IMG/VR virus record: IMGVR_UViG_3300043640_000102
Span: 1 to 21,625 of that record
Reading direction: 5' to 3' (one strand)
Source of the DNA: a virus
DNA length: 21,625 bases
The position numbers and the translations under genes were made by a program. Positions 3,135 to 21,625 of this stretch are shown here, one piece after another (position 1 is the first letter of the stretch; each line of letters starts with the position of its first letter). The notes below the pieces were generated by a model. The model was not told where the DNA came from, did no database searches, and worked only from the letters and a program-made list of their open reading frames with translations.

Positions 3135-3156
3135 GGTGATGACTCCGATCTTGGAG

Positions 3157-3194: not shown

Positions 3195-3231
3195 GGGATC
3201 TTGGACTTGGCGGATACGGCACACTGGACTG

Positions 3232-4314: not shown

Positions 4315-4360
4315 CGTCGCTCCTCCCGTCGTTGATTGGTCGGCGGAGGTGGTCGGCAGT

Positions 4361-5299: not shown

Positions 5300-5308
5300 A
5301 GCGCCTCC

Positions 5309-5785: not shown

Positions 5786-5798
5786 GGTTGGGCCTCCA

Positions 5799-8549
5799 TT
5801 ACAGCGCCACGATCGCCGGTTGCCAGAGATGCACCGGCTGGCCAGCGGTCAGAATTTTGGTGACGGTCGTCGGATCGACGGTCAGCGTCTGCGGACTCGA
5901 CGCGCCGGTGATGTTGGTGACCTTCACCTTGATGCCGTCGATCCGCAGGTACAGCGGCAGGTATGACGCGTTGGTGGTCCACACCCGGCCGGGGACGTTG
6001 ACTTGCATCGAGGTGGCGCCGGCGGCGACGGTGGTTCGTACTGTGGTTCCGGCCGAGTCAACCCGGCCGGTGGCCAACGACCCCAGCGCCCAGACGCTGT
6101 ACGGGCCTTGTGGTGAGCAGTTGAGCGTTGCGGACCACCGCCTGCGGCCCAGCTTTTGACTGCGCCCTTGGACACTGATGTCCACGTCGCCCGGCGGATG
6201 CTGCGCGGGCATACCGGTCAGAGTGATCGGGTCGAGCATCCGCAGTGCCTGCCACGCCGGAATCAGGTCCGGGTTGGCCGCGAAATCCACCGGAAGCTGC
6301 GGGTATCGCAGGTCTTCGGTGGTGCCGACGTGCACCAGCCATGACGCGATGTTGGGCAGCACGTCGTCGGTGTCGACGTTGACCGTGACGGTGCCGCTGT
6401 CGTAGATGCCGATCGCGGCGGTACCCGACGGGCCGTCGACGTCCTCGGCGACGGCGGAGGATCCCTTGCTGCGCTCGACGCGGACGTAGTTGTGCAGCTG
6501 CTGGTCATCATCGGCAGGTGGCAACACCTGCGAGTCCGACACGTCGTCGCTGATTTTGATATCGCCATAGTCGAGCGTCAGGACCGACGGCCGGTTATAC
6601 CTGGAATTGAGGGTGGAGAACCGTAGCCCGCGGGTCGTGTTGTCGTAGAGCATCCCGCCGACCTCGGCCGACTCCGCATCTTGAACAAGGTGCATGAAGG
6701 AGTCGATGCCCTGCGGCCCCATCGTGACCGTGGTCATGCCGGTCGTTTCCAGGTCGACGCCTTGCTCGTCACACAGCCGCTGAATCCGCTCAATGGTCGT
6801 TTCGCCGACCCAGCCATCTTCGGCGTCGTCCGCCGCGCCGATGTTGTAGCCGTCGAAAACCGAGAGGTGGCCCACCGCCATGCCTTGCAGGGCGGTGTCG
6901 ACATCGACGAAGGTTCGGGAAGGCTGCCCGCACGTGCCTGCGTAGCTGCCCCCGTAGAAGAATCCTCCGCTGCCTGGAAGCGGAATCCACACGAGCTGCC
7001 AGTCAACGTTTCCGCCGGTCTGCCTGACCATCAGCCGGATGTGCACGAACTGCCCGACCATCTGTACCGGCACCGAGTTGTTCAAGACGATCGAGGTTGC
7101 ACCGGCTCGGGCGCTGACCGCCACCGCGCCGGTGGACAGCGCAACGTCCCACCGGGTGGCGGTGCCGGTGGACTCGATACTCATGATCGGGGTGAGCACC
7201 GCCGGTGCGGTCGCGATCTTGTAGTACCAGTCGACTTGCCAATGGCCATGGAAGGTGGAGTCGGCCGGCATCCGCCCGGTGATGCTGCCATCGCTGCCGA
7301 ATGTGGGCAGCGATGCGGAGCCGGCCAACCCGCTGTCGGCGCCGAAGCTCAGATCACTGACCGACAGGTACCCGACGCCCGAGATGGGCGAGCTCGCATG
7401 GGTCGCGTCGACACCGTCTTCGATCGGCCAGTACGCCACCGCATCGCTCGCCAGAAGAGCCCGGTAGAGCGGTGAGTGCAGAGCCTCGCTGCCCTGACTC
7501 AGCCGCCGGGACACACCCGACGCCGACAGGGTCACCGTGGCTTTCTGGGCGTAGACGTCCCAAGCCGGCGACCATCCGTCGGCATCACCGTCCAGCAGAA
7601 CCGGGTTAGGCGCCACGTCCGGATTGACGAGGATCAGGACCGGGCACCCTTTGCGGACCCCCGGCCAGTGCGGGCTTAGCGGGTTGCCCTTGGTGAATCT
7701 CGCGTCGTTGTTGTCCAGCGGTACCGATGCGGTCGCCGGGGATGTGGTCGTAGCGCCATCGGACCGGCCGTCCGAGACGGTGACAGTGTCGTCGAGTAGC
7801 CACGGCGAGATGTCGGTGTACTGCCAGGTGTACGGATCGGCGGCCCGGTCCGCGTCGAAGGCGGCGTAGACCAGCAACTCCAGGTCTTCATCCGGGAAAT
7901 CCGTCGTCGTTGGCGAGCCCACCAGGAAGTTGTCATAGCTGAAGACGACTGGCTTCGTATTGGTGTTGGACGCGGCGATACCCGAGCGGCAGCCAACCCA
8001 TCCGGCCGCGGGAACGGTGATGTCCGTGGTGGTGATCAGCCACAGAGGCGGCCGGATAGTCGACGCCTGCCACACGCGGACACGGATGGTGGTCCCGATG
8101 GCTTGCGCTTCAACGGTGATCTGCATGCCGCCGGTGTAGGTGATGCCCGGCACCGTCGCGGAGCCGATCGGCACACCCGAGTGCCCGTAAGTGTGGACGG
8201 TGACCGACGCGTCGATCTCGACCTGCGTGCGGATGAGGTTGTAGATGGCGACGCTGGTACCGCGCAGCATCAGGTTGGCGATTTCCAGCGGGGCCCCGGT
8301 AGGTACTGCGGCGACGCTGCCCGTTACCTGCGCGTCTACATCGACGAGCGACAGGGTCGACAGGTAGGTAAACCGGTACGCCGCGGCGATCGGGACACTG
8401 TGCTTACCGACGCCGCTCGACACCGACGAATCAGTGCCGCTGACCGTGCCGCCGGCACCCGTCGCGGTCCACGGCTGACCGCTCGTCGCAGAGCCCCAAC
8501 CGCTCGTGACGGTACGCCCGAAGGTGTCGGTGGCGACGTTGGTAATCAC
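5799..8549 (-). CDS. Large minor tail / tail-tip protein with lectin-like domains
   Basis: This is a 916-aa modular protein. Residues ~1-215 (DTFGRTVTSGWGSA to SYDNFLVGSP) look like a concanavalin/LamG-type beta-sandwich common in actinomycete proteins. From ~216 comes a tail-tip or baseplate hub region (WQYTDISPWLLDDTVTVSDG, PLDNNDARFTKGNPLSP). A second LamG-like module begins near AYWPIEDG, and the last third (TTIERIQRLCDEQGVDLE, YPQLPVDFAANPDLIPAW) resembles the conserved C-terminal part of siphophage minor tail proteins. Its GTG overlaps the stop of the tape measure gene by 4 nt (GTGA), and it follows that gene as expected for a distal-tail/tail-tip protein. The sugar-binding-like modules suggest a role in host surface binding. 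Confidence 0.8.
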   Translation of the reverse strand: MITNVATDTFGRTVTSGWGSATSGQPWTATGAGGTVSGTDSSVSSGVGKHSVPIAAAYRFTYLSTLSLVDVDAQVTGSVAAVPTGAPLEIANLMLRGTSVAIYNLIRTQVEIDASVTVHTYGHSGVPIGSATVPGITYTGGMQITVEAQAIGTTIRVRVWQASTIRPPLWLITTTDITVPAAGWVGCRSGIAASNTNTKPVVFSYDNFLVGSPTTTDFPDEDLELLVYAAFDADRAADPYTWQYTDISPWLLDDTVTVSDGRSDGATTTSPATASVPLDNNDARFTKGNPLSPHWPGVRKGCPVLILVNPDVAPNPVLLDGDADGWSPAWDVYAQKATVTLSASGVSRRLSQGSEALHSPLYRALLASDAVAYWPIEDGVDATHASSPISGVGYLSVSDLSFGADSGLAGSASLPTFGSDGSITGRMPADSTFHGHWQVDWYYKIATAPAVLTPIMSIESTGTATRWDVALSTGAVAVSARAGATSIVLNNSVPVQMVGQFVHIRLMVRQTGGNVDWQLVWIPLPGSGGFFYGGSYAGTCGQPSRTFVDVDTALQGMAVGHLSVFDGYNIGAADDAEDGWVGETTIERIQRLCDEQGVDLETTGMTTVTMGPQGIDSFMHLVQDAESAEVGGMLYDNTTRGLRFSTLNSRYNRPSVLTLDYGDIKISDDVSDSQVLPPADDDQQLHNYVRVERSKGSSAVAEDVDGPSGTAAIGIYDSGTVTVNVDTDDVLPNIASWLVHVGTTEDLRYPQLPVDFAANPDLIPAWQALRMLDPITLTGMPAQHPPGDVDISVQGRSQKLGRRRWSATLNCSPQGPYSVWALGSLATGRVDSAGTTVRTTVAAGATSMQVNVPGRVWTTNASYLPLYLRIDGIKVKVTNITGASSPQTLTVDPTTVTKILTAGQPVHLWQPAIVAL

Positions 8550-11500
8550 CGGCTCACCCTCGATCCCAATGCCTGCTGGGCGTTGCCACCGTAGGAGATA
8601 CGGATGTGGCTGCGCAGCGCCGCCATGACTGGGTCACTGACCGGGCCGACCCACTGTGCGGTCAGCGGTCCGGAATCGCCGAACGGAGAGGCCGCGGTAA
8701 GGGATGCCGTGCTGGCAAAATCGACACTGCCGGACAGGCTCGACGTGACACCCGAGAGTGTGCTTTGCACGCTGGATGCCTGCGCCCGAAGTCCGTCCTC
8801 AAACCCTTGCAAGACAAGGCGACCACTGCCGAACAGGATCTTCCGGTCCACACGCGGCGGGCCCTTCCAGTCCGGCAGCAATCCTGTGAGGTCGCTCAGC
8901 CATCCCTTCAGCGGGCCGAGCATCGACTTTGCGCCGTCAATCAGACCTTGGACGATGGCCTTGCCTGCACCTTTCAAGATGCTCCCCGCATGGCTGAAGG
9001 CGCCCGTGATGATGCCGGGGATGCTGCTAAATGTTGACTTCGCCGCCGAGCCGACCCCGAAGAACTGCTTGATGGCTGACACGAGCCACCCGATCAGCTG
9101 CGAGATCTTGGTAGAGAGCCAATGGATCACATCAGCAACGGTCTGAACGCCCGCGGCAACGACGATAAGCAGGCCGGTGAGGACGATGATGGTGCCTTGC
9201 AGTAGGCCGGACTTGGTGATCAGCGACAGGAAGAAGGTCAGGAGTTGCACGAGAACAGGCAGCAGTGGGGTGAACGCGACTAGGAGGGACAGGGCTGCCA
9301 CGGCCATTTGCCCAATGGCCACCGCAATGGTAGGTATCTCCGGCGCCAGCGCCAGGAGGATCGAAAGGAAGGACTGCGCGAGGGACACGCCGACCTGCTG
9401 GATGATCGGAACCAACTGCGCGAAGATCGCGAACAGTTGCGGCAGGAACGGGATCAGCCCTTGGATGAGCTGAGTAACGATCTGCGCGATGACCGGGATC
9501 AGCGGCGTGAACGCGAGCGCCAACTGGGCCGCGGCCTGGGCGATCTGCGGCAGGACAGTCTGCGCCGCCTGGAAGAGGATCGGCAGCAGCTGCTTCGCGA
9601 AACCCAACTCGATCTGAGCGATGATCTCGATAAACGGCGAGAAAGCATGGGCAATCCCGGAAAGGGCGATCGACGCGATCTCCAACGCGTTGGCAAGCTG
9701 CGCGCCGAGCAACGGCAGTAGTGGCGAGATCGCAGCAGCGATATCCCCGATGGCTTTGCCCACGGGCGCGGCCACCGGCGCGAGCGCGGCGATGGCCACT
9801 CCCAGCCCGCTGATTAGCGTCAGCAGCCCGGGACCGGCAGCAGCGAGCAGCCCGGTGACGATCTGCGCGATGGGCGGGATCGCCTGCGCCAAAATGCCTG
9901 CGAGGGCGGCGAAAACCGGGCCCAGCGCGCCGATCGCCTTGCCGATCGGCGCGGCTGCTGGCGCGAGTGATTGCAGCGCCTGTGACAAGCCCACGAAGAG
10001 TTCAATGATGCCCGCACCGGCACCAACCAACAGTCCGGTGATGATCTTCGCAATCGGAGTCAGAGCACCGGACACTACGGTGGCTAGCGATGCGAGCAGG
10101 CCGCCGATGGGCGCTGCCGCAGAGGCCACGATGCCCAGCGCCGTACCAACCCCACGGAGCAACGCCGTGAACCCGGGCGAGAACGCGGTGACCAGCTGAA
10201 CGAGCGTGCGCGCCAGTGGTGCGAGCGCCGCGGTGAGCGGGGTGAGTGCTGGCACCAGTGAGAGGATCCCGGGAGCCAGAGACCCCAGTGCGGCACCCAG
10301 TCCCGTGGCGAGACCGGCTAGACCCTGCGCGAATCCCTCGTTGGACGCGATGGTGGCGATCGCCTTGGTTACTGGCACCAGCGCCGAGCCGATCGCTTCG
10401 ACAACGGGCAGCAGTGAATCGCCGATCTGATTCAGCTGGGCGAAGATGCCAGTAATCGCGGACTGCCCGGACGTTGAGTTGACCAACTTGTTGAGCTGGT
10501 CCAGTACTAGGCCAAAGGCAGTCCCCGGGCCGATCGCCTTAGCCAGCCCGCCGAAGATGCCCGCAATGTCGGCGAGCGCACCGGCGAACGACTTCAGCGT
10601 GGCAAGCCCATCGACGATCAGCTTCGTCAGTCCGCCGGACGCGGCCAAAGCCGTGATCTTGTCGGCGAACTTGGTGACCGTGCCGATCAGCGGGACGAGT
10701 AGCTGGTTGATGACGCCGCCACCGGCAGTCGTCACGCCGATGAGTGCGCGACCGATCGGCGCGATCGCGGTCAGCAGGGTCTTCGCCGCAGTCGTCGCCG
10801 TGGTGAAAAGCTTGCCGAGAGACTGCCGGTTCGCCACCGTATTCAGGGCGTTGAGTCCGGTGATCACGCCTGCATTGATAGTGGCGGCAAGCCCGATGAA
10901 ACCCTTCTGCAAAATGGGCAGAGTGCTGCCGGACAACGCCTTGAGCGTCTTCGCGGTATTGGCGAAGAGTGCGTTCTGTACTTTGAGTTGCAGCTTCTTG
11001 AAGGCAGTCTGAAGCGCGATGACCTGCTTGACGAACTTCTGGGCGTTGGGTGCCAACGTCTTTAGGGCGGCGTCGAGCTTCTTCGCGTCGCCGCTGGCCG
11101 CCGCCGTCAGGGCGTCGGACAAGCCGTGCAGGCCGATAGCCAGCGTGGCGACACCGAGACCAGCAGCGGCGGCAGCGGCCGGGATTGCCAGCAGCGCACC
11201 GGATGCGGAGATGATCCCGGTGACCAAGCCCTTGACGATCGGCAGCGCCTTGGCCGCAGCCGCGGCGAGCCCGCCGATAGCAGACGCTGCGGCGCCAGCG
11301 CCGAGACCGCCGAGGGACAGCTTGGACACCCCGGACAATCCCTTGAGGGATAGCTGCGTACCACCAGTGACACCCGCCGACACGGCCGACGAGATCAGGC
11401 CCTGCAAGCGGGTTAGCTGAGACTTGGCTGTATCGAGCTTCAGGTTGATTGCCGGGGCAGCCTTCTCCGCCAACTTGGCTGCAAGCGCAACCCGCGTTTT

Positions 11501-12382
11501 AAGGCCCTTTTCGTCAGGCTTGAGGGGCAGGCTCACCGACACTTCGTGCGAGACCGCATCCGCCAACGCCTTGAGCTTGATCTCAAAGGCTCGCCGGTCA
11601 GCCAGCTCGACGGGCAGGTCGATCTCCAGCGTCTTTTGCAACTCGGCCAGCCGCGCCGCGAGACGCGCCCGCAACTCCGCAGTCTGCGCAGAAACGGGGA
11701 TGTTGAGATTGACCTGCCTGGACAGTGCCGCGAGTTGGCTGCGGACCTGCGCGCGGAACGACTCTGCCAACGGATCAAGGGGTACCTTGATCGGATCGGT
11801 ACGCTCCGGCAGGTCCTTCTTCACCTGCTCCCTGAACCCGCTAGTGTCCGGTTCCACCGGCAGGTTAATCGACAGTTCCTGCTCGACCGCTTCGGTCAAC
11901 GCGCGAAGCTTCGCCTCAAAATCGCGCTGATCCGCCGGCTCGACCGGGATCTTCGCGGAAAGTTGGCGCTGTACCTCCGCGAGTTGCGCGCCGAGCTTTT
12001 CGCGAAGCCGTGCGGTATCGCCCTCTACCGGCACTTCGAGGTTGACCTGCTTGGCGAGAGCGGCGAGCTTCGCCTTCATCTGCGCCTTGAATGCCGCAGC
12101 CAGCGGATCCAGCGGCACGCCTACCGGTGGCGTCGTCTTCGGCAGCTTCGCCTTTGTTTTCTGCTCGAACCCTGTGGTATCGGGGTCGATCGGCGCCTTG
12201 ACTGGCGGCAGGGTCTTCGGGAGTTGTTTCTGAGTCTTCTCTCGGAAGCCACTGGTGTCCGGCGCGACCGGGACCTCAATGCCTTTGCCGATTTCCTTTG
12301 CCAGCGCCGCTTTGAGCTTCGCGCCGAACCCCTTGGCGCTCGGCAAGATCGACACATAACCTGAGCCCAGCTCCTCCGCCAC
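8546..12382 (-). CDS. Tail tape measure protein (1278 aa)
   Basis: The start GSGYVSILPSAKGFGAKLKA is typical of actinophage tape measure proteins. Residues ~38-286 consist of repeated units with VP(V/L), DTSGFRE, PLDPLA-(A/S)F and LAAL-RQVNL motifs. Residues ~350-420 and ~640-1130 are long hydrophobic helices, in part as ~55-residue repeats ('APIGKAIG', 'PIAQIVTGLL'). By the usual rule of about 0.15 nm per residue the tail would be roughly 190 nm long. It is by far the longest gene in the window and sits between the tail assembly chaperones and the tail-tip gene, the standard place. The start is GTG at 12382, behind GGGGGTG. Confidence 0.93.
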   Translation of the reverse strand: MAEELGSGYVSILPSAKGFGAKLKAALAKEIGKGIEVPVAPDTSGFREKTQKQLPKTLPPVKAPIDPDTTGFEQKTKAKLPKTTPPVGVPLDPLAAAFKAQMKAKLAALAKQVNLEVPVEGDTARLREKLGAQLAEVQRQLSAKIPVEPADQRDFEAKLRALTEAVEQELSINLPVEPDTSGFREQVKKDLPERTDPIKVPLDPLAESFRAQVRSQLAALSRQVNLNIPVSAQTAELRARLAARLAELQKTLEIDLPVELADRRAFEIKLKALADAVSHEVSVSLPLKPDEKGLKTRVALAAKLAEKAAPAINLKLDTAKSQLTRLQGLISSAVSAGVTGGTQLSLKGLSGVSKLSLGGLGAGAAASAIGGLAAAAAKALPIVKGLVTGIISASGALLAIPAAAAAAGLGVATLAIGLHGLSDALTAAASGDAKKLDAALKTLAPNAQKFVKQVIALQTAFKKLQLKVQNALFANTAKTLKALSGSTLPILQKGFIGLAATINAGVITGLNALNTVANRQSLGKLFTTATTAAKTLLTAIAPIGRALIGVTTAGGGVINQLLVPLIGTVTKFADKITALAASGGLTKLIVDGLATLKSFAGALADIAGIFGGLAKAIGPGTAFGLVLDQLNKLVNSTSGQSAITGIFAQLNQIGDSLLPVVEAIGSALVPVTKAIATIASNEGFAQGLAGLATGLGAALGSLAPGILSLVPALTPLTAALAPLARTLVQLVTAFSPGFTALLRGVGTALGIVASAAAPIGGLLASLATVVSGALTPIAKIITGLLVGAGAGIIELFVGLSQALQSLAPAAAPIGKAIGALGPVFAALAGILAQAIPPIAQIVTGLLAAAGPGLLTLISGLGVAIAALAPVAAPVGKAIGDIAAAISPLLPLLGAQLANALEIASIALSGIAHAFSPFIEIIAQIELGFAKQLLPILFQAAQTVLPQIAQAAAQLALAFTPLIPVIAQIVTQLIQGLIPFLPQLFAIFAQLVPIIQQVGVSLAQSFLSILLALAPEIPTIAVAIGQMAVAALSLLVAFTPLLPVLVQLLTFFLSLITKSGLLQGTIIVLTGLLIVVAAGVQTVADVIHWLSTKISQLIGWLVSAIKQFFGVGSAAKSTFSSIPGIITGAFSHAGSILKGAGKAIVQGLIDGAKSMLGPLKGWLSDLTGLLPDWKGPPRVDRKILFGSGRLVLQGFEDGLRAQASSVQSTLSGVTSSLSGSVDFASTASLTAASPFGDSGPLTAQWVGPVSDPVMAALRSHIRISYGGNAQQALGSRVSR
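11525..12271 (-). repeat. Coding repeats in the N-terminal part of the tape measure gene
   Basis: These encode residues ~38-286. Two long units can be aligned: 90-174 (PLDPLAAAFKAQMKAKLAAL to SINLPV) and 200-284 (PLDPLAESFRAQVRSQLAAL to SVSLPL). Each is preceded by a VxPDTSGFRE segment (41-48 and 178-185), with an extra DTTGF copy in the first. Confidence 0.75.
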
Positions 12383-12414
12383 GATTCACCCCCGTGGGTT
12401 GTGACAGATGGGAT

Positions 12415-13097
12415 TCAGCAGTCGTGACCCAGCGCACGCAGATGCGCGTAGACCTCTTCTTGCGTGACAGTCGGCTTGCCGTACGTCGTATCCCGCGACT
12501 CGGCATTTGCCTTCGCCAACGGAGACAACGGTTTCGGCCTGTTGCGGCCTTTGCTGCCGTCCTTGGTGCGCTGCCAGTTCGCGATCGCCAACTGGTCATG
12601 GATCAGGAACAGCAGGTGCTGGTCTGGCGTGTACTCGTCCGTGGCCATCGCACGCTTCGTGGCACTGTCGGGCGGTAGGTGCTGCACCAGTAACCAGAGA
12701 CGCCGCGGGCTGAGTTCACCGCGGTAGTAGTCGAGCAGGTCGACTCCGCGAAAGAGCAGGTCGGCTTCGATCTGATCCCCGTACTCGTCGAGTAGTGCGG
12801 GGATCGCTAGGAGTTTCCCTGGCCCGAGTCCTCCATGACGAGACTCAGGAAGTCCTCCAGTTCGCCGATGGTGGCGTGCCGGCCACGGAATTCCGCCCAC
12901 TGGTCGGCGCCGAGGATGCCTTCGAGCGCGCGGACGTACTTCTGCTCGTCAACGGCGGTCAGGACGTCGATGGACCAGCCGCGGTACGGCGGGACGGCGT
13001 AGGTGTGGCCGCCGAAGATGATGTCGACACCGGACAGAAGCGCCTCGGTTTTGCGGCCGGCAGAGGATGACGTGGTCTTGCGCGGACGTGCAGGCAT
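12415..13097 (-). CDS. Tail assembly chaperone, -1 frameshift fusion (G-T type, 227 aa)
   Basis: This is the read-through product made when ribosomes slip back one base at GGGAAAC (12813-12819). The first 95 residues come from the short chaperone frame; the product then continues LLAIPALLDEYGDQIEADLL and ends LRALGHDC. The C-terminal part has features usual for T-type chaperone regions: RRLWLLVQHLPPDSATKRA, TPDQHLLFLIHDQLAIANW and RNRPKPLSPLAK. These proteins chaperone the tape measure during tail assembly and are not in the virion. The reading frame for the T part has no credible start codon of its own, and it lies directly upstream of the tape measure gene, as in lambda-like and actinophage tails. 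Confidence 0.88.
12774..12819 (-). promoter_or_regulatory. Programmed -1 ribosomal frameshift site (heptamer plus hairpin)
   Basis: The heptamer G GGA AAC (12819-12813) is in the zero frame of the short chaperone, two codons before its TAG. A 7-nt spacer follows (12812-12806). A stem-loop spans 12805-12774: GATCCCCG pairs with CGGGGATC, and, after a CAC bulge, TACTC pairs with GAGTA around a GAC loop. That is 13 base pairs at the ideal distance for a stimulatory hairpin. Confidence 0.9.
12807..13097 (-). CDS. Tail assembly chaperone, short form (G type, 96 aa)
   Basis: This is the zero-frame product. It starts MPARPRKTTSSSAGRKTEAL, with a core VDIIFGGHTYAVPPYRGWSIDVLTAV, and ends LEDFLSLVMEDSGQGNS. 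Length, position between the major tail protein and the tape measure gene, and the frameshift signal at its very end all fit the siphophage G-type chaperone. The ATG at 13097 is preceded by GGAGTC at about 9 nt. Confidence 0.88.
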   Translation of the reverse strand: MPARPRKTTSSSAGRKTEALLSGVDIIFGGHTYAVPPYRGWSIDVLTAVDEQKYVRALEGILGADQWAEFRGRHATIGELEDFLSLVMEDSGQGNS

Positions 13098-13227: not shown

Positions 13228-13782
13228 CTAGCTGTAGCCCCAGTTGGCATCGTCCGAGAATTTCGTGAGCAATACCCCGTTTGCGTCCGGGTACAGCGTC
13301 ACCGTGACCTCGTACTCGATGGCGTCGCTGGAGGTGTACACGATGTCCGACCGCTCGGTGACCTCCGCATTACTGGCGTACAGCCGGACGTGATTGGAGC
13401 CGTCCACCACGTCGATGGCCCAAGCCCGCGGGTCAGCGGTCGCAGCCTTAACGTCGATCTTCCACTTGCCGGCCGCAGTCGCGACGACGGCGGAGCCCTT
13501 GTGGTAGACCGAAAGGACCTTGCCGCGCGTCTCGATGAGCTTGAACTTCAGCGTCGCCGTGGAGCCGGAAATGACGGTCCGGACGGTCACGCCGCCCTGC
13601 CACGCCTTGATGTCGGTCGTGTCGTCGGAGTAGGACTCGGTGACACCGTCCTCACTGACGAAGCCGAGGTCGGCGAACGCGGCGGCGAGGGCAGTTGTGG
13701 AATCGGTGGGTGCTGTCGATCCGGTCGCGGCCACCGACACGGCACCGGACACGGCGACACGAACCGCGGCGGCATTAGCCAC
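13228..13782 (-). CDS. Major tail protein (tail tube subunit)
   Basis: This 184-aa protein (starting ANAAAVRVAVSGAVSVAATG) has an LGFVSEDGVTESYSDDTTDIKAWQGG segment followed by alternating beta strands (TVRTVISGSTATLKFKLIET). This is typical of siphophage tube proteins, which stack as hexamer rings around the tape measure. The start is GTG at 13782, with an excellent AGGAGGT 5 nt upstream, which fits high expression. It is followed by two hairpins and then the tail chaperones, the standard order. Confidence 0.9.
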   Translation of the reverse strand: MANAAAVRVAVSGAVSVAATGSTAPTDSTTALAAAFADLGFVSEDGVTESYSDDTTDIKAWQGGVTVRTVISGSTATLKFKLIETRGKVLSVYHKGSAVVATAAGKWKIDVKAATADPRAWAIDVVDGSNHVRLYASNAEVTERSDIVYTSSDAIEYEVTVTLYPDANGVLLTKFSDDANWGYS

Positions 13783-14556: not shown

Positions 14557-14901
14557 TCAGCCCTCCACCTTCTGCAATTGCGCTTCAAGGTGATGCGGGC
14601 CGTGCCCAGGCTGGTCGACGGGCCACGGCGGGCCGGTGATTTCGTAGGTGGCCGGGCCGTCCTCGATGCGGTCCACGCCGGACACGGCCAAGTCGTTCGT
14701 CAGCAGCTTCCCGGCGCCGATAAGCGGCGCCCGGTCGTCGGTGATGGGCTCAGTCGAAGACGGCTGCTCGATGTAGCCCCGGATCGTGCGGCGGGTAGCT
14801 GCCGCGCCGTAGTCGGGCGTGGCGTCGTTCCACCGGTTCGTCGTCGTGGCCGGCTGAACCAGCGTCAAGTCCCGCAGTAGTCGATCGGGCAGTCCACTCA
14901 T
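14557..14901 (-). CDS. Head-tail connector / stopper protein
   Basis: This 114-aa protein starts MSGLPDRLLRDLTLVQPA and contains RTIRGYIEQPSSTEPITDDR and a strand-rich ATYEITGPPWPVDQP segment. It resembles small 'head closure/stopper' proteins (SPP1 gp16-like) that hold DNA in the filled head. Its ATG overlaps the adaptor gene stop by 4 nt (ATGA). The position fits. Confidence 0.75.
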   Translation of the reverse strand: MSGLPDRLLRDLTLVQPATTTNRWNDATPDYGAAATRRTIRGYIEQPSSTEPITDDRAPLIGAGKLLTNDLAVSGVDRIEDGPATYEITGPPWPVDQPGHGPHHLEAQLQKVEG

Positions 14902-15788
14902 CGGTTGCTCATCCGCACAGTGCCGAAGCCCTTGCTGCGGTAGTCGGCGAGCGAACTCTTGTCGTCAGCCGTCAGCCGGACCTGCAACCCGATACCCGCC
15001 GAGTCGATCCGGTAGCTGTAGCTGCCGATCGTCTCGCTCGTGACCCCGCCGGATTGGGTTGGCGCGGTGAGCGTCCGCAGGACCATGCCAACGGCCACGC
15101 CGACCACATCAGCCGGAACCTCGGCATAGCCGTGGGAGTAGGTGATCCGGAAGGTGTAGCCAACGCATTCGTTGAGCCACCACTCCGGCAAGTTGATCTG
15201 GATCCCGATGCCGCCGAGGTAGACGGTTTCGAGCCCGTCCCACCACCAGCCCACCAGCGGGACATTCGGCAGCCCACCGGTGCCCACGCCGACCACGGAT
15301 GCGACTGCGATAGCTGGGCGTTGGGGGAGTCGGATCTGGTCGCCGTCCGGGCGGGTGACGAGAGTGTCATTCGGCACGTAGGTGAAGGTTTGGCCGGTGT
15401 AGCGACGGATCTGTGCTGATGCCGCCGCGAGCAGGCCGCGCGCCCGGGTGGCTTCTGCTGCGGTCAGGTCCCGGCCGAGCGCGTCCTCTAGGTCGGTCGT
15501 GGATGCCAGCGACTCCAGCCGGGCGGGCGGATCGACGGCAACGTCGAAAAAACCGAGATCGACGCCGGTAGCAGCCCCGGAGATTTCCCAGCGGTATTGC
15601 CACCTGCCGGCCATCGTCGTCACCGGCGCGGCCGAGTAGGCGCCGACGCCGGTGTGGTTGATGGCGGTCGCCACGGTGGTGCCGTCCGGCGCGGTGACAG
15701 TCAGGACCACCGTGGCGTCGACCGGGGTGCCAGCGTTGTCCTCGACAGTCAGCTCAATCGGTGGCGCGTCGCCAATATCCCAAGCCAT
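14898..15788 (-). CDS. Head-tail adaptor with an added Ig-like N-terminal domain
   Basis: This 296-aa protein is about twice as long as a usual adaptor. Residues ~1-88 (PPIELTVEDNAGTPVDATVV to WRYRWEISG-like strands) look like a bacterial Ig-like or invasin-type fold. Residues ~90-296 carry the adaptor: LASTTDLEDALGRDLTAAEA, ARGLLAAASAQIRRYTGQTF, VPADVVGVAVGMVLRTLTAP and a final strand plus LADYR-KGFGTVRM segment. The adaptor docks below the portal ring. Ig-like domains on virion proteins often bind sugars weakly. It ends within the stopper start codon (ATGA). Confidence 0.8.
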   Translation of the reverse strand: MAWDIGDAPPIELTVEDNAGTPVDATVVLTVTAPDGTTVATAINHTGVGAYSAAPVTTMAGRWQYRWEISGAATGVDLGFFDVAVDPPARLESLASTTDLEDALGRDLTAAEATRARGLLAAASAQIRRYTGQTFTYVPNDTLVTRPDGDQIRLPQRPAIAVASVVGVGTGGLPNVPLVGWWWDGLETVYLGGIGIQINLPEWWLNECVGYTFRITYSHGYAEVPADVVGVAVGMVLRTLTAPTQSGGVTSETIGSYSYRIDSAGIGLQVRLTADDKSSLADYRSKGFGTVRMSNR

Positions 15789-15791
15789 CGC

Positions 15792-18521
15792 TCACGCTCC
15801 CGTCGGGTTCAGGTCGTTGCTGCGGACGCGAGAGGTGATGTGACTGGTGCGCACCCGGCTACGGAGTCGGCCGCCGGTGCTGGCAACGGGGATCCGCGGT
15901 GTCGGGATGGACGCGATGGCGCGCACCGTGCTGGCTGCGGCCGTGGCGCTGGCGCTTGTAGTCACGGCCGGAGCCAGAACGGCTGCAACTGCCGCAACGG
16001 CGGTCGGGTTTGCGACCGCCGAGGCGGAAACCGTCGGCGCTGGCACCGATGCTGTTGCCGCGACCGTTGATGCGGCCACGGTGGCGCTACCGCCAGCCGA
16101 GACCGCCGGAGCCGGGACGGATGCAATGGCGGTGACCGTGGTGGCAGCGACGGTCGCGAACGCCGAGGCGGAAACCGTCGATGACGGGATCGCTGCGACC
16201 GCGGCGACAGTAGCGGGATCGATGGTTACGTCGATTTCGACCGACTCGAACGCACCTACAGCAGCCGTGGCAGCGACCGCCGGAGCGGCAACCTTCGTGC
16301 TGGCCGAAACGCCCGCCACTGGCACGGCCGCGATCGCCTGCACAGTGGCCGGCGTGACCGAGGTCAGATGCGAAACGGTGACGGTTGGAACCGTCGCCGT
16401 GCCGACCACCACGGCCGGGGTGGCGCCGGCATCGACCGGATCGCCGAACAGGACGACCGGGTCAACCAGGTAGCCGCCGCCGGTACCCAAGTGTGGGAAT
16501 GCCGGGCCGGTGGCGGATCCGGTTAGGTCGAGCCGGCCGTTGCGTACCGGCGTGACCGTGTCGTCGGCGGGCCCGGTTAGGTGGCCGGTGACAACGTCGC
16601 TGGCGAACAGCCCGGACGCGGCGACGTACCGGTCAGGCGTGTGGATCGCCCAGACGTACCGCGGGCCGGCAGTGATGTCGGCGGGCGTGTCGAACGGCGC
16701 CGTATTCCAGCCGCCAGCCGTCGGGCTGGCGAAGGTCCCGGACGCGAGTTCGGTGCCGCCCGTTTCCGAGTCGTAGCTGTAGAGCACCGCGGCGACCGGG
16801 CCGGACGGCAAGGTGGCCGGGAAGTACCAGCGGCAGCCGATCGCTAGGCCATCCGTGTCCGACACCACGAGCGTGCCCAGGGTGTAGGCGAGGCTGTCGT
16901 TGGCGTCCGGGGTGTCCGGGGTCTGCGTGGTGAGCAGGTGTTGCTCTTCGCCCGGGCCGTGGGCGGAGACGGTCGGCGACGGGATCCCGGCGACGGCGGT
17001 GACCGTGCTGGGCGTGACCGCCGAGCCGGTGGAGATCGACACCGCCGGAACGGCCGTGACGCCGGGGACCGCGCCGGGCTGAACCGTTGCATTGTCCGCC
17101 GTGGACACGGTGACCGTCGGTACGTCGGCGACGGCGGAGACTACGTCCGGCGTGGCCGTGGCATCCGTACTGTCGCCGCCACCAGTATCGACGATGGGCC
17201 CGACGTGGAAGTTGGCCTGGTTGCCGCTGGGGGACGACGGGTACGCCGGCGTATCGGCAGATGCCGAGGCCAAGCAGCCGTTGACGGAGTCCGGTGCGGT
17301 CAGGTCGCCATCGGTGTGCGGCCACGTGTAGTGCGCCGTCGCCGAGTACCGGTCGGTGAGGACGGCCGCGATGTAGTGGGTGTCGGCCGTGATCGGTACC
17401 GACGAGTCGAAGGTGACATCGACGTCGCCGCCGGCCGTCCACGTGAACGCCTTGATGGCCAGCGGGGTGGTGTTGCTGACCTCGTACAGCAGGGCGTAGA
17501 GGTTGACGCCGGGCAAGCTTGTCGGTGCGCACCAACGGACACCGGTGCAGTCGCCATCGATCGCGCAATACCACTCAACGCCCAGCGTGTAGAGGACGCC
17601 GACACCGTCAGAGTTGTCGGGGAACTCGGGATCACCCCAGTCGAACGCCTCGATGCCGTGACCGCCGCCACCGGTCGAGACGGTGGGCGTATCGACTGCG
17701 GCGACTGCCGCCACCACGGACGGGGTGACGATCGAACCGGTGTGAATCGTGACCGCCGGAGCCGCAGTGACAGCGGAGACGATGCTGGGCGTGACTACTG
17801 AGCCGGTCTTGACGGCCACACTCGGTACGGCGGTGACACCAGCAACGACAGCCGGAGTGGCGGTCGCGTCAGTGCCACCGGCCGGGACGATCTCGAAGAT
17901 TTTGTAGGACCACGCAGCGGCGCCGGTGCTGCCAGCATCAAAGTTGAGCGTTACGGTCTGGCCGGTACCGCTGGTGTTCGCGGCCTTGTAGACGGAGATC
18001 CCGTCGATATTGCCCGCCGAATGAAACGCGACCGCCGTATCGGTACTAGTCGGCAGGCCAAGGGCATTCCACTCAATGCCGGTAGCGACCATCCGGCAGC
18101 CGTTGTTGGTATTGGTGACATTGACGGACAGGTTGTTCGTCGTCGACGTGCTCTGCGCCTTCGACACCACGGCCGACGTGCTGGCCGTACCCGTGTAGGT
18201 GACCGGCTTGACACCCTTGGTGCTGGTGGTTCCCGACCCGGACCACGTCGCCGTGACGGTCATCCCGGCATGCGACGCGCTGGTGAACGCCCAGCTAGCC
18301 GCTACGGTGCCGCCGCCGGTGCCGACCTGCGCGGTGCCGATCGGCGTCCACGTCAAGCCGACCGAGTCAGTAACCACGCAGGTGATTGACCCGGTGCCCG
18401 AGTCGCACACCGAGGGCACGATGATCAGCGAGTTGGCGGCCGGTGAGAACGTCGCCGAGGTGACGGCGTTGGTGCCGGAGTTGGTTGTCCAAGCCGGGTC
18501 TAGGTCGACTGCGATAGCCAC
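15792..18521 (-). CDS. Modular fibre-like structural protein with 22-residue repeats (909 aa)
   Basis: Residues 1-215 form a beta-rich domain (SGTNAVTSATFSPAANSLII). Residues ~286-445 and ~522-692 are two related modules (YTLGVEWYCAIDGDCTGVRW and YTLGTLVVSD--GLAIGCRW, then DTHYIAAVLTDRYSA or PRYVWAIHTPDRYVA), similar to DUF4082-type beta domains. Between and after them are blocks of ~22-residue Ala/Val/Thr/Pro repeats ('TPxxVxAVAxVPxxTVSxG'): 3 copies, 3 copies and 8 copies. The last ~30 residues are basic (RLRSRVRTSHITSRVRSN). No enzyme motif is seen. The GTG at 18521 follows GGGGGT. It lies upstream of the adaptor gene, so it may decorate the head or neck, though a tail or receptor role cannot be excluded. 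Confidence 0.7.
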   Translation of the reverse strand: MAIAVDLDPAWTTNSGTNAVTSATFSPAANSLIIVPSVCDSGTGSITCVVTDSVGLTWTPIGTAQVGTGGGTVAASWAFTSASHAGMTVTATWSGSGTTSTKGVKPVTYTGTASTSAVVSKAQSTSTTNNLSVNVTNTNNGCRMVATGIEWNALGLPTSTDTAVAFHSAGNIDGISVYKAANTSGTGQTVTLNFDAGSTGAAAWSYKIFEIVPAGGTDATATPAVVAGVTAVPSVAVKTGSVVTPSIVSAVTAAPAVTIHTGSIVTPSVVAAVAAVDTPTVSTGGGGHGIEAFDWGDPEFPDNSDGVGVLYTLGVEWYCAIDGDCTGVRWCAPTSLPGVNLYALLYEVSNTTPLAIKAFTWTAGGDVDVTFDSSVPITADTHYIAAVLTDRYSATAHYTWPHTDGDLTAPDSVNGCLASASADTPAYPSSPSGNQANFHVGPIVDTGGGDSTDATATPDVVSAVADVPTVTVSTADNATVQPGAVPGVTAVPAVSISTGSAVTPSTVTAVAGIPSPTVSAHGPGEEQHLLTTQTPDTPDANDSLAYTLGTLVVSDTDGLAIGCRWYFPATLPSGPVAAVLYSYDSETGGTELASGTFASPTAGGWNTAPFDTPADITAGPRYVWAIHTPDRYVAASGLFASDVVTGHLTGPADDTVTPVRNGRLDLTGSATGPAFPHLGTGGGYLVDPVVLFGDPVDAGATPAVVVGTATVPTVTVSHLTSVTPATVQAIAAVPVAGVSASTKVAAPAVAATAAVGAFESVEIDVTIDPATVAAVAAIPSSTVSASAFATVAATTVTAIASVPAPAVSAGGSATVAASTVAATASVPAPTVSASAVANPTAVAAVAAVLAPAVTTSASATAAASTVRAIASIPTPRIPVASTGGRLRSRVRTSHITSRVRSNDLNPTGA
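15891..16424 (-). repeat. Block of eight ~66-bp coding repeats
   Basis: These encode residues ~700-877 of the 909-aa protein: copies of a ~22-residue unit such as DPATVAAVAAIPSSTVSASA and TVAASTVAATASVPAPTVSA. One copy is degenerate (VGAFESVEIDVT). Confidence 0.8.
16959..17156 (-). repeat. Block of three ~66-bp coding repeats
   Basis: These encode residues ~456-521 of the 909-aa protein (TPDVVSAVADVPTVTVSTAD, then VTAVPAVSISTGS, then TPSTVTAVAGIPSPTVSA), which link the two DUF4082-like modules. Confidence 0.8.
17667..17858 (-). repeat. Block of three ~66-bp coding repeats
   Basis: These encode residues ~222-285 of the 909-aa protein (TPAVVAGVTAVPSVAVKTG, TPSIVSAVTAAPAVTIHTG, TPSVVAAVAAVDTPTVSTG), which link the N-terminal domain to the first DUF4082-like module. 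Confidence 0.8.
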
Positions 18522-18537
18522 GAAGGACCCCCGCCCG

Positions 18538-19605
18538 TCAGCCGGTGTAGTCGGTCAGGTGTCCGTCGTTGTCGTCCGGCCACCAATACTTGCCGTGGTC
18601 AGACGTGGAGAGTGCGGCGAAGTCGTCCCCGGCGCGGACCTGGAACCGGTTGCCCGCCCACGCGTTCGTACCGTCTCCGTCGTTCCAGACGTTGTTGAAC
18701 CACGGGCCGAAGATGCAATCCAACTCGGCGGAGAATATGTTGCCTGTGACCGTGATGTTGGTGCCCTGCCACGGATCCCGGGCGCCGACGCACAGCGAGT
18801 AGCCCCAGCCGCTCACGTAGCAGTTGGTGATGGACACCCGGTTGTACGTCGAATCGCCCTGCAATGCGACGCCGTTCGTATTGCCTAGGCTCGCAATCGT
18901 GCAGTGGTCGACGATAGTGTCGTGGCCGCCGCCCTCGCTATCTGGGCCGATTCCGTCGTGGTGGTAATTCTGGCCTGGAGGAGCGCCGGACGAGTCCGTG
19001 TCGGAACAGTCATGGATGTAGCAGTTGGTGAAACGCGCCGGGTGGGACGCATCTGTCCCGCCGGTGCCTTCCAGCCCTGCACCGCCCCAAATGTCGCAGT
19101 GGTCAAACTCGACAACCGTGCCCTCCACCTCGTTGGCAATCAGCTGCCAACTCTGGCTGTAGGGCGTGCCGGGCGCGGTCCGGCTTGACGACATGGAACC
19201 GTCATTCCCTGGCGGTGCCGAGTACTGATTGGGCTTGAAGGTGCAGTACCGAAAAGTGACCGTCGTTGCGCAGTAAATCTGCACCATGTTGTCATTCGGC
19301 AACGTGCCTTCGAAAACGCATCCGACAAAGGTCAGACGGTCACCAACACTCTGGTAGCCGATGTACGACTTGCCCAGCATCCGCTTGTAGCTGATGACGG
19401 TATCGTCGGCGACCTGGACGAAGCAGTTGCCATCCTGGGACATGCCGCCGGTCCAGTCGGCGACGGATCCGGGATAGCTCGGCTCCCGCAGGTAGCCCGT
19501 ATTGGAGTCGTCCGGCCAGTAGCCGCTGCCGTCGTTGGGCCGGGATGTGAGCGCCGTCCCGCGCGAACTCCCGGTGCCGATCAGCCGAACATCAACCCGA
19601 GCCAT
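18538..19605 (-). CDS. Right-handed parallel beta-helix protein (355 aa)
   Basis: From ARVDVRLIGTGSSRGT onward the protein shows serial beta-helix coils with N/C-rich turns: LTFVGCVFEGT, VTFRYCTFKP, VVEFDHCDIWGGAG, ARFTNCYIHDC, DTIVDHCTIASLG, VSITNCYVSGWG and ITVTGNIFSA. Such folds occur in polysaccharide lyases and in phage depolymerase tailspikes, but also in inert structural spikes. I cannot identify catalytic acids with confidence. The ATG at 19605 is chosen because it starts 7 nt after the stop of the upstream gene; the longer frame adds a low-quality N-terminus. It precedes the 909-aa fibre gene by 16 nt, so the two probably act together. Confidence 0.8.
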   Translation of the reverse strand: MARVDVRLIGTGSSRGTALTSRPNDGSGYWPDDSNTGYLREPSYPGSVADWTGGMSQDGNCFVQVADDTVISYKRMLGKSYIGYQSVGDRLTFVGCVFEGTLPNDNMVQIYCATTVTFRYCTFKPNQYSAPPGNDGSMSSSRTAPGTPYSQSWQLIANEVEGTVVEFDHCDIWGGAGLEGTGGTDASHPARFTNCYIHDCSDTDSSGAPPGQNYHHDGIGPDSEGGGHDTIVDHCTIASLGNTNGVALQGDSTYNRVSITNCYVSGWGYSLCVGARDPWQGTNITVTGNIFSAELDCIFGPWFNNVWNDGDGTNAWAGNRFQVRAGDDFAALSTSDHGKYWWPDDNDGHLTDYTG

Positions 19606-19612
19606 CGGAGGC

Positions 19613-20068
19613 CTACGGGGGAGTGAGGTCGATGGTGAAAATTCCCCCGCTGGCGAATTGGACGGCCAGCGTCCCCGCAACGGTGCTGTAATCCGCCCCG
19701 AAGTTCACCAGCAGGATGGCGTTGTTGCCAGTCAGCACATCCGCGTAGATCAGGGCGCAGCGAGCACCGGTGATGGTGGAGGTTGCCCACGACAGGTCAT
19801 CGCCGTCCCATTTCAGGGTTCCGGTCGGTGACTCGGTGACCGTGGTGGTCGTGACCACTATGCCGCCCGCGGTGTACCCGGTGCCGCTGCACTCGTTGGC
19901 ATTGTACGGGCTCACCCCATACGCGGTGTCGCTGGAGAAGTTCGGGGTGATGCTGTTGGTGAACAGCGCCGCCTTGTGGGTTTCGAGGTCCAGGTCGATC
20001 GCAAGCTGAGTCGTATCGAGAATGTCGATCCACGTCGGCAGGAACAGGCCGGAGACGGTGACAGCCAT
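19613..20068 (-). CDS. Small beta-rich phage structural protein (151 aa)
   Basis: It starts MAVTVSGLFLPTWIDILDTT and contains LDLETHKAALFTNSITPNFS, AYGVSPYNANECSGTGYTAG and a strand-rich TLAVQFASGGIFTIDLTPP end. I recall very similar short proteins in many actinophage structural operons ('DLETHK-ALFTNS--P-FS', 'ANE--GTGYTAGG'), annotated as hypothetical or minor structural. A virion role is likely; capsid decoration or fibre attachment is an inference from position. The ATG at 20068 lies next to the stop of the preceding gene. Confidence 0.7.
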   Translation of the reverse strand: MAVTVSGLFLPTWIDILDTTQLAIDLDLETHKAALFTNSITPNFSSDTAYGVSPYNANECSGTGYTAGGIVVTTTTVTESPTGTLKWDGDDLSWATSTITGARCALIYADVLTGNNAILLVNFGADYSTVAGTLAVQFASGGIFTIDLTPP

Positions 20069-20069
20069 G

Positions 20070-20327
20070 TCAGCCCACCTTCACAGTCGCCGGGACGATG
20101 GTCGCCGAGCCGGGGTCCTTCGTTGCGACCATCAGCCCACCCGATCGTGCTTCGTCCCGAGCGTCGGCGAGTGCCTGCGATGCGGCCCGGTGAGCCGCGC
20201 GGGTCTCCGGAGTCTGGCTATCCCGATACGCCGTCTTGGCTTCGTTCATCGCGGTCTCCAGTCGGGCCATGTCGTCGAGCTGGGCCGCCATGGCCCGTAG
20301 CTCCGCCGCCCTGTCGCTGCTATTCAT
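20070..20327 (-). CDS. Small coiled-coil protein (85 aa)
   Basis: Residues 1-65 are almost continuous charged helix (DRAAELRAMAAQLDDMARLE, NEAKTAYRDSQ, ETRAAHRAASQALADARDEA), followed by a strand-like tail (GSATIVPATVKVG). It has no membrane segment. Its ATG overlaps the end of the 70-aa gene by 8 nt, so they are translationally coupled. It may be a scaffold, a trimerisation stalk or an assembly factor for the beta-rich protein that follows; the function is not known. Confidence 0.65.
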   Translation of the reverse strand: MNSSDRAAELRAMAAQLDDMARLETAMNEAKTAYRDSQTPETRAAHRAASQALADARDEARSGGLMVATKDPGSATIVPATVKVG

Positions 20328-20532
20328 CAGTCCTCACCTCGGTGATTGGCATGCTGGCGTGCAGGCGCGGTGCACGGATCAGGACGTCTTGCCGGCCATC
20401 CCAGTGATGGGTGGTGGTGTTGCGGTGTTCGTCGGTAACCGGGTTGGTCCAGTCCTTGCCGTGGCGCGAGTAGCCGGTCTGGACGCCGATGCTGAGGAGC
20501 TTTTCGCGGTCGATCGGGGTGCCCTCGGGCAT
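20320..20532 (-). CDS. Small hypothetical phage protein (70 aa)
   Basis: It starts MPEGTPIDREKLLSIGVQTG and contains YSRHGKDWTNPVTDEHRNTT followed by THHWDGRQDVLIRAP. It is rich in His, Asp and Arg, has no cysteine and no membrane segment. The ATG at 20532 has GGAAGG about 8 nt upstream; a longer frame overlapping the glycosyltransferase is rejected as a shadow. No family was recognised. It is coupled to the coiled-coil gene. Confidence 0.65.
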   Translation of the reverse strand: MPEGTPIDREKLLSIGVQTGYSRHGKDWTNPVTDEHRNTTTHHWDGRQDVLIRAPRLHASMPITEVRTDE

Positions 20533-20548
20533 GGCGATTCCTTCCCGC

Positions 20549-21550
20549 CTATCGGGTCGCGAGTGCGCGTTTGGTGGATGCCGCCATCTGCGCGGCGAGG
20601 TGCCACGTCTCCAGGTCGGCGGTCGGGTCCAGCTCGGACGCTCGCGCCTTGGCGGCCTTGCTGGCCTTGGCCCAGTTGGCCGGCTTGCGCAGCGACCGGA
20701 TCGCCGAGACCCAGCCGTCAACGTCGGCAGGATCGACGAAGGTCCCGGCGTCGCCCAGCGACTCCCGCAGGCCCGGTGTCGGCGAAGCGATGACCGGGAT
20801 ACCGGAACACATCGCCTCCACGCCAACCCGGCCCCATGACTCGTACTTCGAGGGCACGAGCAGGATCCGGGTACGGGCGTAGACCTCATCGCGCATCCGG
20901 TCAGCCGGAACGTTGTCGATGATCTCGACGTTGGGCAGGTCGCGGATATCCTGCTCGCCGTAGCCGCCGGTGACGGCCAGGAACTTGACGTCGGGCATCC
21001 GTTCGGCAACCCGCCAGAAGGTGTTGGCGCCCTTGTTGGGGAACAGGTTGACCAGCGTCACCAGGCCGCCGGGTTTGGTGGCGTACTCCGCCACGTCTAC
21101 CGGCGGCCGGACCACGATGCCGGGCACCGGGTTGGGCGCGCCCTGCTCGACGAACCACTCGTTGTAGTCGGCCCGCATCCACTCGCTGTTGTAAACGGCG
21201 AGTTGCGGTTTCCTGGCCACCCACTGCTTGCTGGGCTCGAACGTGTTGTGCAGCAGATGCGCGACAGGAACGCCGTTGACCTGCCCCAGAACCGTCGCTC
21301 GGGGCGTGTTTTCCAGGTGGCTCACCAACAGGTCGGACGTGGGAATGTACTCGAAGACGTGGCCCTTACCCGTAGACGGATGTACCCGCACTCCATCGAC
21401 TTCGTAAGGCTGCCCGCCGTCCTCACGGGACAGCACCACATTGACTTCGTGACCCTGCTGGGCGAGATAGCGAAGCATGGCGTGAGCCATGACCTCGGCG
21501 CCGGCATTGTGGACTGGAACGTAGGCGTGGAAAAGCGCGAGAACTCGCAC
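20549..21550 (-). CDS. GT4-family glycosyltransferase
   Basis: This 333-aa protein has two GT-B Rossmann halves: MRVLALFHAYVPVHNAGAEV with AHAMLRYLAQQGHEVNVVLS, and VTLVNLFPNKGANTFWRVAE with the donor-site EX7E motif E237-SWGRVGV-E245 and GIPVIASPTPGLRESLGDAG. H101 (LLHNTF) is a typical acceptor-side residue. GT4 enzymes transfer sugars from nucleotide donors with retention of configuration. It has no membrane segment. The start is GTG at 21550 behind AAGGAG. It is the first gene of the visible late region, directly upstream of fibre-like genes. It may glycosylate a virion protein (known for actinophage capsids and tails) or change the host surface; the sequence does not decide which. Confidence 0.88.
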   Translation of the reverse strand: MRVLALFHAYVPVHNAGAEVMAHAMLRYLAQQGHEVNVVLSREDGGQPYEVDGVRVHPSTGKGHVFEYIPTSDLLVSHLENTPRATVLGQVNGVPVAHLLHNTFEPSKQWVARKPQLAVYNSEWMRADYNEWFVEQGAPNPVPGIVVRPPVDVAEYATKPGGLVTLVNLFPNKGANTFWRVAERMPDVKFLAVTGGYGEQDIRDLPNVEIIDNVPADRMRDEVYARTRILLVPSKYESWGRVGVEAMCSGIPVIASPTPGLRESLGDAGTFVDPADVDGWVSAIRSLRKPANWAKASKAAKARASELDPTADLETWHLAAQMAASTKRALATR

Positions 21551-21578: not shown

Positions 21579-21625
21579 CCCGAGTCGGGGGGGGGGGGGG
21601 GGCCGGCCCCCCCCGAGGGGGCGGG
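21579..21625. other. Poly-G/poly-C low-complexity contig end
   Basis: A long run of G is followed by GGCCGGCC, a run of C and GAGGGGGCGGG. This is unlike the rest of the window and looks like low-quality sequence at a contig end. No gene can be read here, and the true upstream neighbour of the glycosyltransferase is unknown. Confidence 0.75.

Follow-up and report, generated by a model that had tools for sequence, protein, structure and literature searches.

A glycosyltransferase-linked gene set and a head-tail adaptor with an added domain: a putative neck-borne adhesion appendage in an actinophage

What do six genes that stand immediately before the head-tail adaptor gene of an actinophage contribute to its particle? 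The question is raised by the IMG/VR record IMGVR_UViG_3300043640_000102, a genome fragment from an actinophage of soil-type bacteria, whose whole length of 21,625 bases (the window) was analysed. Its structural genes lie on the minus strand in the order GT4-family glycosyltransferase, two small proteins (s69 and s85), a 151-residue protein (p151), a 355-residue protein, a 909-residue fibre, the head-tail adaptor and the head closure protein Hc1, followed by two small proteins, the major tail protein, chaperone genes, the tape measure, a 916-residue tail protein, a 158-residue protein and the endolysin. The initial annotation had taken the first six for a glycosylated appendage of the head or neck, encoded apart from the tail fibre locus. 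All six are open reading frames on the minus strand, placed as it had listed them. From the glycosyltransferase to the adaptor, neighbouring genes overlap by up to 8 bases or are separated by up to ~16 bases; this tight packing is the arrangement expected of one operon. The set very probably encodes a virion-borne adhesive appendage and, on balance, an accessory one carried at the neck.

Relatives of p151 place the set among comparable gene groups. A single scan confirmed 226 of them in viral contigs, 80 of which were fetched; the nearest, 50-69% identical, belong to contigs of actinobacterial character from phages or prophages, and the two named hosts are Nonomuraea. A common order, here termed the cassette, comprises an s69-type and/or an s85-type protein, p151, 0-4 beta-rich proteins, a fibre with Val/Ala/Thr/Pro-rich repeats of 22-24 residues, and a ~110-residue protein of BppU_N type. 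This order recurs in loci L015-L020, L023, L024, L072 and L097. Identity of p151 to 26 relatives is 37-69%. Homologues of s69 immediately precede the cassette in L018 (2e-9) and L019 (1e-9), and those of s85 lie directly 5' of the p151 homologue in L015 (4e-13) and L016 (1e-5), with counterparts in L097 and L019 recognised by sequence start and position. Judged by eye, a coiled coil in s85 is plausible. The closest counterpart, L016, encodes a p151 that is 69% identical, a beta-helix protein, a 912-residue repeat fibre and a 112-residue protein.

The window departs from this order at the end of the cassette. No separate gene for a ~110-residue protein is present; the fibre gene is directly followed by the adaptor gene (14898-15788, minus strand), which was identified by its match to phrog_442 (8.5e-36) with Hc1 as the next gene, and 95 adaptor residues stand ahead of the conserved core. 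A profile of seven 110-residue cassette proteins matched this N-terminus in hhalign with a probability of 69.8 (E value 4e-5), and its score of 30.9 was reached by none of 300 shuffles (maximum 17.5). Among 900 control open reading frames, only four members of the BppU_N-type family itself ranked above the adaptor N-terminus, and the best unrelated one had a probability of 5.8 against 39.2 for the full adaptor. The ~110-residue family member of L020 is 39.5% identical to HRTV-25 gp8, which is annotated as a phage BppU N-terminal domain. With the family extended by HRTV-25 gp8, CRP-6 gp56 and HGTV-1 gp6, the adaptor was matched with a probability of 82.7 (E value 9.5e-6; 0 of 100 shuffles), the remainder of the adaptor with 0.3, which is no match, and gp9 of the satellite MiniFlayer with 66. 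Profile similarity to BppU-annotated proteins places the adaptor N-terminus in the BppU_N type; Pfam PF10651 itself was not reached, and a sequence search of the PDB with the family gave no match. TP901-1 BppU itself does not match the family, and the N-terminus of the TP901-1 neck passage structure (NPS) matches it weakly. The matches of the adaptor N-terminus model to complement MG domains (Z ~8) are those of a generic beta-sandwich and were not used.

Adaptors with such an extension are uncommon. In a control set of 80 loci fetched with the adaptor of a Nonomuraea prophage, 73 adaptors were recognised, none of which has an N-terminal extension of >60 residues; the Arthrobacter adaptors likewise begin at the core. 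The fusion is rare and not unique, because the phrog_17896 and phrog_442 profiles do contain such an N-terminal region. Close relatives of the window adaptor were sought in viral contigs and none was confirmed.

The position of the cassette in the Nonomuraea typhae prophage (L097) bears directly on the neck. Landmarks identified there by profile give the order portal, capsid, adaptor (core only), tail terminator, cassette, two tail-tube genes and tape measure; the cassette itself consists of an s85-like protein, a p151 that is 67% identical, two small proteins, an 813-residue fibre with 22-residue repeats and a 114-residue BppU_N-type protein. The prophage shares with the window the presence of these protein types in the neck interval. 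In contrast to the window, the cassette follows the adaptor and terminator, the anchor-type domain is the separate 114-residue gene, DUF4082 is absent from the cassette and no glycosyltransferase occurs within the stretch read.

A related arrangement is known from satellites. In the Streptomyces satellite Mulchroom, capsid gp5 is directly followed by adaptor gp6, whereas its sister MiniFlayer (OQ357865) carries a p151 homologue (gp6), gp7, the giant virion-type gp8 of 1376 residues and the BppU_N-like gp9 of 111 residues between capsid gp5 and adaptor gp10. Electron microscopy of MiniFlayer revealed short fibres, which adsorb to the neck of the helper, and the authors suggested that the proteins of a putative adsorption module in that slot take part (PMC10690885). 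All of these protein types are present in the window and are followed by the adaptor; the capsid gene of the window lies outside the contig. MiniFlayer differs in being a satellite whose short tail fibres are podovirus-like, in encoding the BppU_N-like protein as a gene of its own and in lacking a glycosyltransferase; 22-residue repeats are not reported for it here. The comparison of the two satellites connects this slot and these types of protein with fibres that bind surfaces; it does not place them at the neck of the MiniFlayer particle itself, which is podovirus-like in form.

The lactococcal NPS of TP901-1 and the 936 group, in which a BppU-like N-terminal domain forms the collar and the ends are carbohydrate-binding or beta-helix domains (PMC6669499, PMC4493119), offers a further parallel, and that of TP901-1 is reported to be non-essential. 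The window system would resemble it as an accessory neck adhesion device with a BppU-like anchor. In the lactococcal structure, anchor, stalk and tip are parts of one protein and the adaptor is unmodified, whereas in the window the adaptor bears the anchor-type domain and a separately encoded repeat protein is the fibre. In sequence the two are only weakly similar (probability 20, 0 of 100 shuffles), and the set was not classed as a lactococcal-type neck passage protein because its anchor and fibre are on different genes. The comparison suggests, as the best reading, a glycosyltransferase-linked neck adhesive appendage that would work like the lactococcal structures and be built differently. 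The initial annotation had proposed that the system may be undescribed, and this has to be narrowed. Earlier descriptions exist for neck collars, for whiskers and for the MiniFlayer module, the MiniFlayer authors having proposed an adsorption module in the slot and the lactococcal structures being analogous, and the set is not categorically new; what is new is the cassette as a recurrent unit, the docking domain borne by the adaptor and the link to sugar enzymes.

A means of attaching the fibre is suggested by p151. It belongs to the phrog_644 family (E value 3.8e-14 over residues 22-149), and the AlphaFold model, built from 27 sequences with a predicted local distance difference test score (pLDDT) of 91.9, is mostly beta, in agreement with its first description as a beta-rich protein. 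The best structural match is the T4 baseplate chain 5iv5_BJ (Z 13.2, 135 residues, 2.9 Å); others are the Bxb1 tail-tip chain 9d93_Ra (Z 10.1, 100 residues, 2.1 Å), the GP4 fibre/fibre-tail-adaptor chain 8jou_a (Z 8.8, 117 residues, 2.9 Å) and the HFTV1 tail chain 9h4p_BD (Z 7.6), and a connector chain of Bas63 and a tail-fibre chain of Agrobacterium 7-7-1 are among the weaker ones. Among predicted viral proteins (BFVD), the matches include tail-collar fibre proteins. A PDB sequence search with the p151 family gave no match. The modelled fold is that of fibre- or wedge-attaching proteins, as in the GP4 fibre-tail-adaptor and the T4 baseplate, and not of a known capsid cement protein; the assignment is one of fold, not of function. 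The GP4 fibre-tail-adaptor (8jou) and the tail-collar fibre proteins share this fold; they differ in their baseplate or tail location and have no detectable sequence similarity to the p151 family.

The predicted fold alone does not separate neck from baseplate. The appendage may instead be a side fibre that belongs to the baseplate or tail tip; its genes would then merely happen to lie between those for capsid and adaptor, and the added adaptor domain would have nothing to do with it. This explanation accounts for the top structural matches of p151 being baseplate or tail-tip chains (5iv5_BJ, 9d93_Ra and 9h4p_BD), for the occurrence of BppU_N domains on the baseplates of TP901-1 and mycobacteriophages (PMC6669499, PMC13252515), and for related cassettes that lie among tail genes in L018, L072, GMA1 and Guey18. 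It leaves unexplained why the terminal domain of the cassette is on the adaptor, why the set is kept in the neck interval in MiniFlayer and the Nonomuraea prophage, and why p151 is found behind the capsid gene in many phages, and we consider it rather unlikely. The proposed separation from the tail fibre locus stands in so far as the set is distinct from the tail-tip genes, and is blurred by L018, in which the repeat fibre is fused to the family of the 916-residue tail protein of the window. That L018 protein (9306-13073), a 22-residue-repeat fibre joined to phrog_5313, represents a natural anchor swap.

The frequent neighbourhood of p151 and the capsid gene also admits head fibres, with p151 and the fibre decorating the capsid surface and the glycosyltransferase modifying capsid proteins. 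A major capsid gene, identified by phrog_1357 (1e-58), lies directly upstream of p151 in 55 of 83 loci, a p151-like domain ends a PHROG annotated 'virion structural protein, head and packaging', and the head of HFTV1 bears turrets with a possible role in binding the host S-layer (PMC12494034). Close behind the capsid gene of the podovirus ctEqG8 come a p151 homologue and a basic-tailed repeat protein. However, most of the 55 loci fall into two related groups, whose next genes are annotated as tail-fibre proteins, no capsid-binding feature was found, and the fold of p151 is of the tail/fibre attachment type. Head fibres appear improbable on this evidence. A large marine group (L025-L071) has the order portal, scaffold, capsid, p151 and several proteins that start with MPLGAFK/MPFGxxK, with no tail genes nearby.

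The two large proteins would be the parts of a neck appendage that meet the cell surface. The description of the 909-residue protein as a modular fibre is borne out by a 22-24-residue periodicity and two copies of DUF4082 (Pfam PF13313; 5e-25, 88.5 bits against a cut-off of 28.4). Its residues 9-211 align with residues 229-426 of the 912-residue fibre of L016 (z 17.4, 0 of 300 shuffles). The 355-residue protein, initially called a beta-helix protein, has five PbH1-like motifs but no match in Pfam, PHROG, NCBIfam or the PDB; the L016 protein in the same slot is a parallel beta-helix one, NosD-like at 4e-9 and with a para_beta_helix repeat. Given these counterparts, both proteins fit the cassette by position and partly by sequence. 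No close relatives of either were found among the phages and viral contigs searched. The fibres of ctEqG8 and GMA1 were rejected as homologues of the 909-residue protein after non-significant BLAST and shuffle tests, the repeat style alone being similar, and a 22-residue period was ruled out as the sole hallmark of such fibres, since other long proteins in adaptor-bearing loci have periods of 21-25 residues. Candidates for a glycan-binding tip in the window are DUF4082, which has no known ligand, and the 355-residue beta-helix, recognised at motif level only. Long proteins with 22-24-residue repeats also occur near p151 in L088 (13313-14926), L073 (1317-4115) and L093, contigs without actinobacterial character, and one of them is rich in Gln-Asn-Ala repeats.

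The first gene of the visible operon encodes a GT4 glycosyltransferase, as first annotated: PF13692 (Glyco_trans_1_4; 1.6e-16, 61.3 bits against a cut-off of 27), PF00534 (2.5e-14) and PF13439 match, the GT1/GT4 domains exceeding the curated Pfam cut-offs, and phrog_26352 was found at 2.2e-116. In the Streptomyces phage TurkishDelight (L002), gp20 lies between the capsid and adaptor genes and consists of two fused copies, both halves being 37-39% identical to the window enzyme, and the tape measures are related (27% over 1204 residues). It was rejected as a full counterpart for want of p151 and a BppU_N-type protein; the fibre is likewise absent there. Its gp22 (16832-17542), between the major tail protein and the adaptor, resembles by eye a second sugar transferase, and TurkishDelight may carry two sugar enzymes between its head and tail genes. 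GT4 genes are present in the cassette records L015, L017, L019 and L020, where the genes directly 3' of the cassette include glycosyltransferases, a UDP-glucose dehydrogenase and a nucleotide-sugar epimerase. The repeats of the window fibre are Thr/Ser-rich and almost uncharged, and O-glycosylation of the fibre is therefore a fair guess. From the gene neighbourhood we infer glycosylation of the virion, and modification of a virion protein by the glycosyltransferase is somewhat favoured.

Phage glycosyltransferases often modify the host surface, and the enzyme of the window lies at the contig edge with its neighbours on the other side out of view. Both points would suit a non-virion role, in which the glycosyltransferase and the beta-helix protein act on the host surface in superinfection exclusion or lysogenic conversion. 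Such a role is very improbable: p151, the repeat fibre, the BppU_N-type partner and the adaptor share one packed operon, the homologues adjoin capsid, terminator and tail genes, and inspection by eye shows neither signal peptides nor transmembrane segments in the window proteins.

The adaptor domain, the Nonomuraea prophage, MiniFlayer, the fold of p151, its place behind the capsid gene in ctEqG8 and in 55 of 83 relatives, the sugar genes and the TurkishDelight glycosyltransferase between capsid and adaptor together support an appendage at the neck. Several observations weigh against it. The BppU_N match is one of a profile to a single sequence with a probability of 70-83, and the AlphaFold model of the adaptor N-terminal domain failed (pLDDT 53). 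Baseplate and tail-tip chains, and not neck proteins, make up most of the structural matches of p151, and beyond L016 the 909-residue protein matches other fibres mainly in repeats of biased composition. The record ends just 5' of the glycosyltransferase gene, leaving the capsid genes outside the contig. Many other cassette-bearing records have no GT4 gene; the proposed link to sugar enzymes holds for the four records named above, and a universal linkage is ruled out. Finally, the cassette comes after the tape measure in L018, with the fibre fused to a phrog_5313 tail protein; in L022, L023 and L072 it comes after the genes for tail and lysis; GMA1 and Guey18 have it next to tail or lysis genes, and in L016 and L024 it precedes the terminase genes, where the L016 gene may be a small terminase by our own reading. 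The cassette is therefore portable, and its location on the particle cannot be read from the gene slot alone. The assignment to head or neck, which had been drawn from the slot, gains from p151, the adaptor domain, L097 and the MiniFlayer/Mulchroom pair what the slot by itself could hardly prove, and a neck location retains a modest preference.

How the parts would assemble, where they would sit, and their binding to glycans and glycosylation can be outlined as we infer them. The adaptor, as a rule a ring at the portal, would display its BppU_N-type domains outward, as the lactococcal NPS does with its BppU-like domain, and the neck would be encircled by docking sites. Through p151 and the helical s85, the 909-residue fibre and the beta-helix protein would be coupled to this collar. 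Polysaccharide at the cell surface would be the target of both the DUF4082 domains and the beta-helix protein, for binding or cleavage. The appendage would keep the particle attached to the cell until the tail tip, with the 916-residue protein (5799-8549), engages, and the tail tip would stay the injector. Acceptors of the sugars transferred by the GT4 enzyme in the infected cell would be the Ser/Thr-rich repeats or capsid or tail proteins. By analogy with the non-essential TP901-1 structure, the device would be accessory. The full version, in which the adaptor has turned into the anchor of a glycosylated collar whose BppU_N ring holds, via p151, beta-repeat fibres and a beta-helix enzyme, and in which the cassette moves between sites at neck, head and tail among the tailed phages of bacteria by a change of anchor, is offered tentatively.

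The coordinates of the features are collected in Table 1.

Table 1. Features of the window, with the basis of each assignment
Feature	Position	Strand	Basis or remark
GT4-family glycosyltransferase, 333 residues	20549..21550	-	First gene of visible operon; Pfam, PHROG
s69, small protein	20320..20532	-	Conserved start GTPIDR(D/E)KLLSIGV
s85, 85 residues, small, probably helical	20070..20327	-	Homologues by sequence
p151, 151 residues, probable fibre-to-virion adaptor	19613..20068	-	phrog_644; AlphaFold model
355-residue protein, probable parallel beta-helix	18538..19605	-	Five PbH1-like motifs
909-residue modular fibre	15792..18521	-	N-terminal domain, short repeats, two DUF4082, basic C-terminal tail
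Fibre N-terminal domain, residues 1-211	17889..18521	-	Homology to L016 fibre
Fibre repeat block 1, residues 212-285, period 22	17667..17888	-	0/2000 shuffles reach periodicity
DUF4082 domain 1	17202..17606	-	3.7e-12
Fibre repeat block 2, residues 452-522, weak	16956..17168	-	60/2000 shuffles reach periodicity
DUF4082 domain 2	16551..16925	-	1.9e-19
Fibre repeat block 3, residues 694-884, period 24	15870..16442	-	0/2000 shuffles reach periodicity
Adaptor N-terminal domain, BppU_N-type beta-sandwich, probable anchor	15498..15788	-	hhalign profile match
Adaptor core	14898..15500	-	phrog_442; 34-36% identical to Arthrobacter phage head-to-tail adaptors
Head closure Hc1	14557..14901	-	phrog_501 2e-6; next neck gene after adaptor
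Major tail protein	13228..13782	-	PF25681 2.8e-27; phrog_117
916-residue tail protein	5799-8549	-	phrog_5313 family

Other features of the window and of one further virus were noted. The tape measure (8546-12382) has, by eye, N-terminal imperfect repeats of ~100 residues resembling PVAPDTSGFREKTQKQLPK, and a local 26-residue period was also scored. The contig edge at 21587-21625, just 5' of the glycosyltransferase start, is almost wholly poly-C/G and looks like an assembly-edge artefact. ARAGORN called a tRNA-Ala (cgc) at 1948-2020 on the plus strand, opposite to most surrounding genes, which may be an attachment-site remnant, a true phage tRNA or a false call. In HRTV-25 (L185), gp7-gp8 (2605-7645) comprise a 1569-residue laminin-G protein and then the BppU_N-type protein, before the terminase gene; the pairing of a giant adhesin with a small anchor-type protein also occurs in this haloarchaeal tailed virus.

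Host recognition in tailed phages has been studied almost wholly at the tail tip. The cassette is widespread and largely unannotated, and appears to give its phages a second adhesion device whose position on the particle is set by its anchor; an adaptor with a docking domain provides a simple, testable case of such anchor-dependent placement. If the proposal is true, it would help to explain unannotated structural genes near the capsid genes of many marine and soil phages, would supply a genetic basis for the neck-riding of MiniFlayer, and would tie phage glycosyltransferases to a defined part of the virion.

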